Below, in pieces: positions 10,912 through 14,646 of a stretch of DNA of 32,251 nucleotides (its first letter is position 1; every line of letters begins with the position of its first letter). This DNA is from an uncultured Candidatus Saccharibacteria bacterium (GTDB lineage: Bacteria; Patescibacteriota; Saccharimonadia; Saccharimonadales; UBA4665), in contig CAIMCP010000097.1 of assembly GCA_903839515.1 (NCBI GenBank), positions 1 to 32,251 of the forward strand, in the 5' to 3' direction. Below the pieces are notes generated by a model. The model was not told the DNA's origin, made no database searches, and worked only from the letters and a program-made list of their open reading frames with translations. The position numbers and the translations under genes are program-made.

Positions 10912-12936
<2,025 letters not shown>

Positions 12937-12939
12937 TAT

Positions 12940-12968
12940 TTGACAGTATCTACGTTTTCAGATATAAA
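12940..12968 (+). promoter_or_regulatory. Sigma70-type promoter for an unannotated RNA
   Basis: TTGACA (12940-12945), 17-nt spacer, TATAAA (12963-12968). Confidence 0.75.
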
Positions 12969-12974
12969 CATTAG

Positions 12975-13091
12975 CATGTTCGTACGTTTAAATAGCGGCG
13001 TAGTGAAAAACAAAAATACTAATTAAAATTTCCAGCCGCTTTCGGTGGGCACGTACGAAATAGTAAAAAGCCAAGATAGTCTTGGTTTTTT
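12975..13091 (+). ncRNA. Candidate structured small RNA (novel)
   Basis: Promoter upstream; outer 9-bp stem TTCGTACGT/ACGTACGAA (12979-12987 / 13051-13059); inner 6-bp stem AGCGGC/GCCGCT (12994-12999 / 13035-13040); ends in an intrinsic terminator. Confidence 0.65.
13065..13091 (+). terminator. Intrinsic terminator
   Basis: AAAAAGCCAAGA-tag-TCTTGGTTTTTT. Confidence 0.85.
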
Positions 13092-13179
13092 AGTTTTAAA
13101 GATAATAGTTTTGTAATTATTTGTGCAATAATCTATTATTAACATAACTATTAAGTTTTTATAGAGGGGTAAAAAGAAA

Positions 13180-14646
13180 ATGAAAAAAATATTACGTAAG
13201 TATATCTACATTTTCATGATCACTGTATCTTTTGTTTCTTTAAGTAGTGGTATTTTATCTAAGGCTTATGCGGCAACTGTCCCTGGCAGTAATTCATCTT
13301 GGCAATCAGCGACTAATCTACCTCAAGTAGTAAATAAATCAACATCTGTTAATTACCATGGGTTCATTTATTCAATTGGTGGAGAAGGAAGTTCTTCGAA
13401 TAATCTAACCAATATTGCACCAATTGCAGGTGATGGATCATTAGGTGCATGGACAACATCGCCTAAGTTATTGCCTGCAGGAATTGCTTGGCATGCCTCA
13501 GTAATTGTTAAAAATTACATTTATGCCATGGGAGGTTATGGTGGAGGCAGTGGTATAGTCGACACTGTTTACTACACTAGCGTCAACTCAGACGGATCAA
13601 TAAACGACTGGAAATTAGCTACAAATCTACCACAGGCCCTTTATGGCAGCTCAGCGGTAACTTTTAATAATTATATTTATATGATCGGTGGTTGGAACTC
13701 TAGTTTTTTTTCTTCTGACACTGTTTACTACACTAGCGTCAACTCAGACGGATCAATTGATAGCTGGAAAACTGCCACTCATTTACCAGTATCTTTATCT
13801 GACATCGGATCAACACAAAGTAATGGATATATTTACGTTGCTGGTGGAGTTAACAATGTTTCTGGAATGACCTATTCTGACAAAGTATATTATTCTAAAA
13901 TTAACTCAGACGGATCAATCGGTGACTGGAACGCATCAACTCATAATTTACCACTAAGCTTATTTTTCCCACAGATACAGGCCTATCACGGATATATATT
14001 TTCTGTAGGCGGAGATTCTGACTCAACCGGTACAATAGCATCAGTTTATTCTGCACCTTTGAGTACAGACGGATCAATCGGTGACTGGACTGTTTCACCT
14101 AACCCACTGCCCAAACCTATATCTCATTCAACTAGTTCTGTGTATAACGGTGTGATGTATCTAATAGGTGGTAGCACTAATACAGGTTTTTCAGGATTAG
14201 ACAATGTATACTATTCGACGCTAGCAGGCTACGATGCACCTATTCTGCAGTCCATAACTTCCAGTTTAGCTTTTGGATCGAGTAACACATTTGATTTATT
14301 TTCTCTAGCATCCAATAATCCTAGTCAACAATCTCTTATTATCACAAGTAGCCCTAGTCACGGTAGTATTTCTATATCCAATGGAACTATAACTTACACT
14401 GCCAATACCGGATATATCGGTTCGGATAGCCTTACCTATAGTTTTTGCTATATCTATGATTCAACAAATTGCTCTCAGGCAATCATTACTCTAAATATAA
14501 CTAGATCTATTGCTATAGCTCCAAAGACCGGTTTTGGTATCATAGATTCCAATAAAACTGCTAATAAAATTACATATCTAGGACTAAGCAGCTTTAGTTT
14601 TCTTGGATTGGGATTTATTGTTCGAATAAAATCAGGTAAAATTTAA
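13180..14646 (+). CDS. Secreted kelch-repeat surface protein with LPXTG-like C-terminal anchor
   Basis: Signal peptide; repeated YIYxxGG kelch motifs; C-terminal APKTG + hydrophobic segment + RIKSGKI. Confidence 0.8.
   Translation: MKKILRKYIYIFMITVSFVSLSSGILSKAYAATVPGSNSSWQSATNLPQVVNKSTSVNYHGFIYSIGGEGSSSNNLTNIAPIAGDGSLGAWTTSPKLLPAGIAWHASVIVKNYIYAMGGYGGGSGIVDTVYYTSVNSDGSINDWKLATNLPQALYGSSAVTFNNYIYMIGGWNSSFFSSDTVYYTSVNSDGSIDSWKTATHLPVSLSDIGSTQSNGYIYVAGGVNNVSGMTYSDKVYYSKINSDGSIGDWNASTHNLPLSLFFPQIQAYHGYIFSVGGDSDSTGTIASVYSAPLSTDGSIGDWTVSPNPLPKPISHSTSSVYNGVMYLIGGSTNTGFSGLDNVYYSTLAGYDAPILQSITSSLAFGSSNTFDLFSLASNNPSQQSLIITSSPSHGSISISNGTITYTANTGYIGSDSLTYSFCYIYDSTNCSQAIITLNITRSIAIAPKTGFGIIDSNKTANKITYLGLSSFSFLGLGFIVRIKSGKI
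13561..13757 (+). repeat. Perfect 41-bp direct repeat within the kelch gene (13561-13601 and 13717-13757)
   Basis: GACACTGTTTACTACACTAGCGTCAACTCAGACGGATCAAT occurs twice, 156 nt (52 codons) apart. Confidence 0.95.

Follow-up and report, generated by a model that had tools for sequence, protein, structure and literature searches.

A structured RNA gene that lies outside Rfam 15 is found across the order Saccharimonadales, almost always as a single copy. On comparative evidence we regard the existence of this order-wide gene as close to certain, with no expression evidence to hand, and we consider the new RNA family established with equal confidence; its expression, partner and role stand outside that claim. 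What is new is the family itself, the general kind (a free-standing structured ncRNA) being known, and no new mechanism is claimed. An unannotated structured RNA had been proposed in the initial annotation, and this is borne out by homologues throughout the order, compensatory changes in both stems and the lack of an Rfam match. The breadth of the distribution (order-wide and single copy) and a near-invariant GGUGGGC strand go beyond that single-sequence view.

The window, that is, the whole stretch of DNA analysed (32,251 nucleotides), comes from an uncultured Candidatus Saccharibacteria bacterium whose genome (130 contigs, ∼0.96 Mb) contains one copy of the element. The RNA gene spans window positions 12940–13091 on the forward strand, inside the intergenic stretch between ligA (10915–12936, same strand, the stop codon ending at 12936) and a kelch-repeat gene (13180–14646). 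Read directly, a −35 element TTGACA (12940–12945) and a −10 element TATAAA (12963–12968) are separated by a 17-nt spacer and begin 4 nt past the ligA stop, as had been reported, and transcription is inferred to start near 12975. Downstream of the core, folding and the flanks of homologues indicate an intrinsic terminator at 13065–13091, comprising the stem AGCCAAGA/UCUUGGUU and the T run described earlier. The core is ∼81 nt and the predicted transcript ∼115 nt, in the absence of expression data. Open reading frames overlapping the element encode 23–40 amino acids and none is convincing, which agrees with the earlier reading.

Two nested helices surround an A-rich loop, as first described. The outer helix, P1, pairs UUCGUACGU (DNA: TTCGTACGT; 12979–12987) with ACGUACGAA (DNA: ACGTACGAA; 13051–13059), and the inner helix, P2, pairs AGCGGC (12994–12999) with GCCGCU (DNA: GCCGCT; 13035–13040); all four strands show two-sided changes among aligned homologues. 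The original P1 needs trimming, since its inner 8 bp are conserved and its outermost pair is unpaired in 30 of 86 sequences. Between the P2 strands lies the A-rich loop (13000–13034) with its motif AAAYAAANA, and the joint from P2 to P1 is formed by an internal segment TTCGGTGGGC (13041–13050, direct reading) that contains GGUGGGC (13044–13050). When the window sequence was folded singly the expected helices were obtained with z = −2.2, and 4 of 200 shuffled sequences folded as well. Single-sequence folding is hence only mildly unusual, and comparative evidence was needed to settle the structure.

Searches with blastn found the RNA in both congeners and a few members of the family. Covariance models were then grown outward from the window locus: the first, built from five sequences, matched 69 of 93 family genomes; the second, from 54 sequences, matched 198 of 392 genomes of the class; and the third, from 86 sequences, matched 318 of the 392, almost always with one copy each (281 of 342 when only good-quality genomes are counted). 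Among the class matches listed for the third model, all fall in the window's order, with a single exception, still unresolved, from a sister order. Named records that carry the RNA are Candidatus Saccharibacteria, Saccharimonas or Saccharimonadales. With the same model, named Saccharibacteria records and the bacterial MAGs grouping with them score at least 51.5 bits, and sequences from Actinomycetes, Proteobacteria and others, selected by pattern, score at most 29.3 bits; pattern matches in the GC-rich genomes of other phyla, scoring so far under the true set, were rejected as occurrences of the RNA. Beyond the class, four genomes of the phylum gave matches (E = 0.006–0.024), and these were also discarded, the inspected sites lacking the layout and looking like chance. 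The sister-order match (genome G109, L258:2001–2077, reverse strand, 37.8 bits) has P1-like ends and GGTGGGC with no recognisable promoter, and may be a distant relative or a chance hit, which remains unresolved. In some genomes of the order that are complete or nearly so, the third model has no match, and this may reflect loss or insensitivity of the model. A phage origin was dismissed, as one viral contig fits the DNA pattern yet obtains no score with the covariance model.

Across the family the layout is constant: a P1 of 8 bp leads through a short linker into P2 (mostly 5–11 bp in homologues), and the A-rich loop, the P2 3′ strand, GGUGGGC and the 3′ strand of P1 follow in that order. When 86 sequences are aligned under guidance of the model, two-sided changes are seen at 13 of the 14 modelled pairs; for P1, eight of nine pairs change on both sides, and for P2 all five modelled pairs do so. 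This alignment contains 160 compensated cells against 40 in shuffles, with a covariation score of 0.424 (0.145 when shuffled), and 93% of its cells pair, compared with at most 62.5% when the partners are slid by 1–3 columns. Because the alignment had been fitted to the structure, P2 was retested without structural guidance by seeking, in each of 135 sequences, the best helix that the 5′ region can form with the segment preceding GGUGGG. The mean z was 3.9, with z > 2 in 90% of the sequences, and 71 different P2 5′ words were present among the 135 homologues (for example AGCGGC, GGCUCUUU, CGGGUUU, GAGGUUCUU and GUGGCUCUUU). The helices are also borne out by a MAFFT alignment of 54 sequences that was made without fitting to structure. 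Compensatory change in both stems, which the initial annotation had named as the support to look for, is thus seen in P1 and P2 across the order.

The unpaired parts are, in contrast to these drifting helices, nearly fixed. Of 135 homologues, 133 retain GGUGGGC and two have GGUGGGG instead, and AAAYAAANA is found within the A-rich loop of 132. Much of the window's family has a third helix, P3 (CACCC/GGGUG), which forms an H-type pseudoknot by interleaving with P2; this helix is weak in the window RNA and missing from genus g23 and from most of the other families. In the window a possible P3 remnant, UCCA (13031–13034), could pair with UGGG (13046–13049), and together with P2 this would make a possible H-type pseudoknot. 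GGUGGGC is unchanged even in RNAs that have lost P3 and with it a possible local partner for the motif, and hence internal pairing does not explain its conservation. The A-rich loop appears to tolerate extra domains, as an insert of ∼55–60 nt lies within it in two homologues (L306:1199–1335 and L307:1195–1336).

Signals for transcription and termination accompany the RNA through its range. A promoter-like sequence (score of at least 9 of 12) lies upstream of 108 of 135 homologues, against 8 when shuffled, and a terminator-like hairpin lies downstream of 114 of 133, against 13. The conserved putative σ70-type promoter and terminator argue for transcription, for which there are no expression data; with both of its own, the RNA qualifies as a free-standing structured ncRNA as far as sequence evidence alone can carry the point. 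LigA is upstream on the same strand at 86 of 135 loci. Downstream genes vary in identity and are often on the opposite strand, one downstream family, read as corA-like, recurring in ∼20 members of the window's family. A gene for a small glycine-rich RRM protein is located divergently upstream, at 170–260 nt, in ∼21–22 loci, mostly of family f6 (L253, L257, L260 and L268 among them). No RRM match was obtained in G114, G125, G128 or G143, all of which carry the RNA, and an obligate RNP partnership with this protein is ruled out by such genomes.

Three further observations concern transcription and surface proteins in these organisms. In the complete genome G081 (L308–L358), words like a promoter −10 element are enriched from −40 to +20 of predicted start codons (TATAATA occurs 58 times, where 4.4 are expected), and this suggests very short leaders, or none, for many genes. 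The kelch-repeat protein encoded beside the RNA has a signal-peptide-like start and, at its C-terminus, PKTG and a hydrophobic stretch, an end like that of a sortase-anchored surface protein. Elsewhere in the window, adjacent ORFs on the reverse strand (845–1153 and 1178–1756) have the common start MNILKKLSKDS(K/S)GFGHI, like type IV pilin leaders.

Our inference is that this free-standing gene would yield a trans-acting housekeeping RNA, whose most likely task would be to scaffold a ribonucleoprotein. GGUGGGC and the A-rich strand would then be the parts read by its partner, a protein or a large complex, and P1 and P2 would serve as shape and so be free to drift in sequence. Single copy number, retention across the order, an own promoter and terminator, drifting helices and two fixed motifs are, as an inference, best fitted by such a scaffold. 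Taken whole, the statement that an order-wide RNA gene acts in trans as an RNP scaffold is tentative, and we hold it to be slightly more open to doubt than to acceptance: the role is inferred and no partner has been identified. Against it, a motif that is fixed and unpaired might just as well serve as a base-pairing seed, and the one linked RNA-binding protein gene, that of the RRM protein, is absent from some RNA-bearing genomes. A bolder form, to which we allow only a slim chance, is that the RNA evolved, in a lineage without detectable SRP, as part of an order-defining core RNP that performs an essential step by a mechanism unseen elsewhere in bacteria; the step would be the targeting of membrane proteins or a function tied to the ribosome or polymerase.

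The seed possibility would make the RNA a base-pairing regulatory sRNA, in which the helices present GGUGGGC as a single strand to GCCCACC near mRNA starts. A fixed 7-nt strand in a drifting RNA with its own promoter and terminator is what such a regulator would offer, but in the complete relative G081, the only genome searched, GCCCACC occurs in 2 of 918 gene-start windows where 2.2 are expected. No target was found among these gene starts, other mRNA regions and structural RNAs not being excluded, and we consider this explanation unlikely, if by no means negligible. Occurrences of GCCCACC at the 3′ end of tRNA-Ile and at a likely 23S rRNA position were rejected as targets, since they fit chance. 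Family f6 raises the different prospect of a two-state switch, in which the 5′ strand pairs either with a local partner or with the distant P1 and P2 strands, the choice being made by a ligand, a protein or transcription itself. A strong local 5′ hairpin in f6, P0, overlaps the 5′ strands of both P1 and P2 and is far stabler than in shuffles (mean z −2.35, with 72% below −1.5); the median cost of folding the two halves separately is only 1.5 kcal/mol, and several sequences show one position at which the P1 and P0 partners co-change. For the family to which the window belongs, however, P0 is close to chance level (mean z −0.59), and there the long-range fold is favoured by ∼8 kcal/mol. Genera g50 and g58 also weigh against a switch, as they have an inserted 5′ hairpin that looks compatible with P1 and P2, so that P0 may be an extra domain and P2 may form a pseudoknot with it; moreover, the terminator takes no part. 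A switch therefore strikes us as distinctly improbable.

A cis-acting leader or riboswitch, controlling the downstream gene (here the kelch-repeat gene) by termination, could be imagined from the terminator that directly follows the core and from the ∼20 members of the window's family with corA downstream. Yet no pairing links the terminator stem to the core, promoter and RNA persist whatever the neighbour, and the genes that follow differ widely and often lie on the other strand. This variation excludes a general leader or riboswitch role and points to action in trans, and control of the neighbouring gene is very hard to credit. We are equally sceptical that the RNA is a substitute for SRP RNA, acting in protein targeting, even in a lineage that seems to lack the particle. 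No match to either the small or the large SRP RNA model (RF00169, RF01854) was found in 11 genomes, the window's own included; no credible Ffh was found in 31 genomes (the window's own and 30 relatives), all 14 control genomes being positive; and a six-frame motif search of the complete genome G081 revealed no Ffh/FtsY-like GTPase. The signal recognition particle seems, in short, to be absent from the Saccharimonadales. However, no SRP domain IV is visible in the RNA, the lack of Ffh leaves it without an SRP protein to bind, and coincidence within the lineage is the only argument for the substitution. Any link between an RNA without an SRP-like domain and the loss of SRP is speculation. Least credible of all is that the element works as DNA, as a protein-binding inverted repeat or a replication or partition site. 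Its single copy per genome would suit such a site, as would P1, an inverted repeat that is fairly conserved within the window's family, but the sequences of P1 and P2 drift freely with pairing kept, G-U pairs included, which favours RNA over a DNA site, and the promoter and terminator are conserved in a fixed orientation. Covariation refutes this reading in practice, and a trans-acting RNP scaffold remains the role we prefer.

The ultrasmall Saccharibacteria live as episymbionts and have strongly reduced genomes. An RNA that the order has retained in single copy, despite extensive change in its sequence, very likely matters to the cell, and a core RNA of this group appears to have been overlooked so far. 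No description of the RNA, or of SRP loss in Saccharibacteria, was found in the literature, of which coverage was incomplete; likewise, a keyword check of some Saccharibacteria and Patescibacteria papers gave no mention of ncRNA or SRP. The covariance model allows the RNA to be annotated in Saccharibacteria genomes, and at ∼115 nt it is a concrete, short target for genetics in the group. Natural transformation and Tn-seq now exist for cultured Saccharibacteria (PMC10633639).

In comparison with known RNAs, a scan of the window against Rfam 15 at the gathering score returned only tRNAs and nothing over the element. The same scan of 20 divergent loci gave tRNAs, one LOOT and one DUF3800-IX RNA, none of them over the element, and a relaxed-threshold search yielded only noise, the best matches being far below threshold. 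A match to a known family, which would have refuted novelty, is thereby missing from the window and the 20 loci alike. The DUF3800-IX RNA (RF02968) is at L107:219–288 (forward strand), near a copy of the new RNA, and the LOOT RNA (RF03000) at L248:780–897 (reverse strand), ∼1.1 kb from another. LOOT is likewise conserved, free-standing and of unknown function, but its sequence and fold are unrelated to those of the new RNA. The initial annotation had recognised no SRP RNA, 6S RNA, tmRNA or known riboswitch here, and this judgement stands, given a separate tmRNA gene, the varied downstream genes and the absence of Rfam matches. tmRNA (RF00023) is also a housekeeping RNA with pseudoknots; identity with it was rejected, a separate tmRNA gene being present in the window's own genome (contig C39:1799–2204) and in relatives. 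ARAGORN reported no tmRNA in G081, which we take as a miss because tmRNA is recovered by the Rfam model in those relatives that were tested. SAM-II and preQ1-II are H-type pseudoknot riboswitches with A-rich loops. The interleaved P2 and P3 and the A-rich strand resemble them in some lineages only, whereas the new RNA has no downstream gene link, has its own terminator and does not widely conserve P3. SRP RNA (RF00169, RF01854) is similarly a small single-copy RNA across a lineage, but the new RNA lacks the domain IV motif, a tetraloop hairpin with internal loops. 6S RNA, of ∼180–200 nt, is a long hairpin with a large central bubble that resembles an open promoter. No 6S match arose in the all-Rfam scans of the window and the 20 divergent loci, and size and layout differ. 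The new RNA resembles 6S RNA (RF00013) in being free-standing and in having a closing stem and an inner helix flanked on either side by unpaired strands, and it differs in its core of ∼81 nt, its one-hairpin layout, its A-rich loop and its fixed GGUGGGC.
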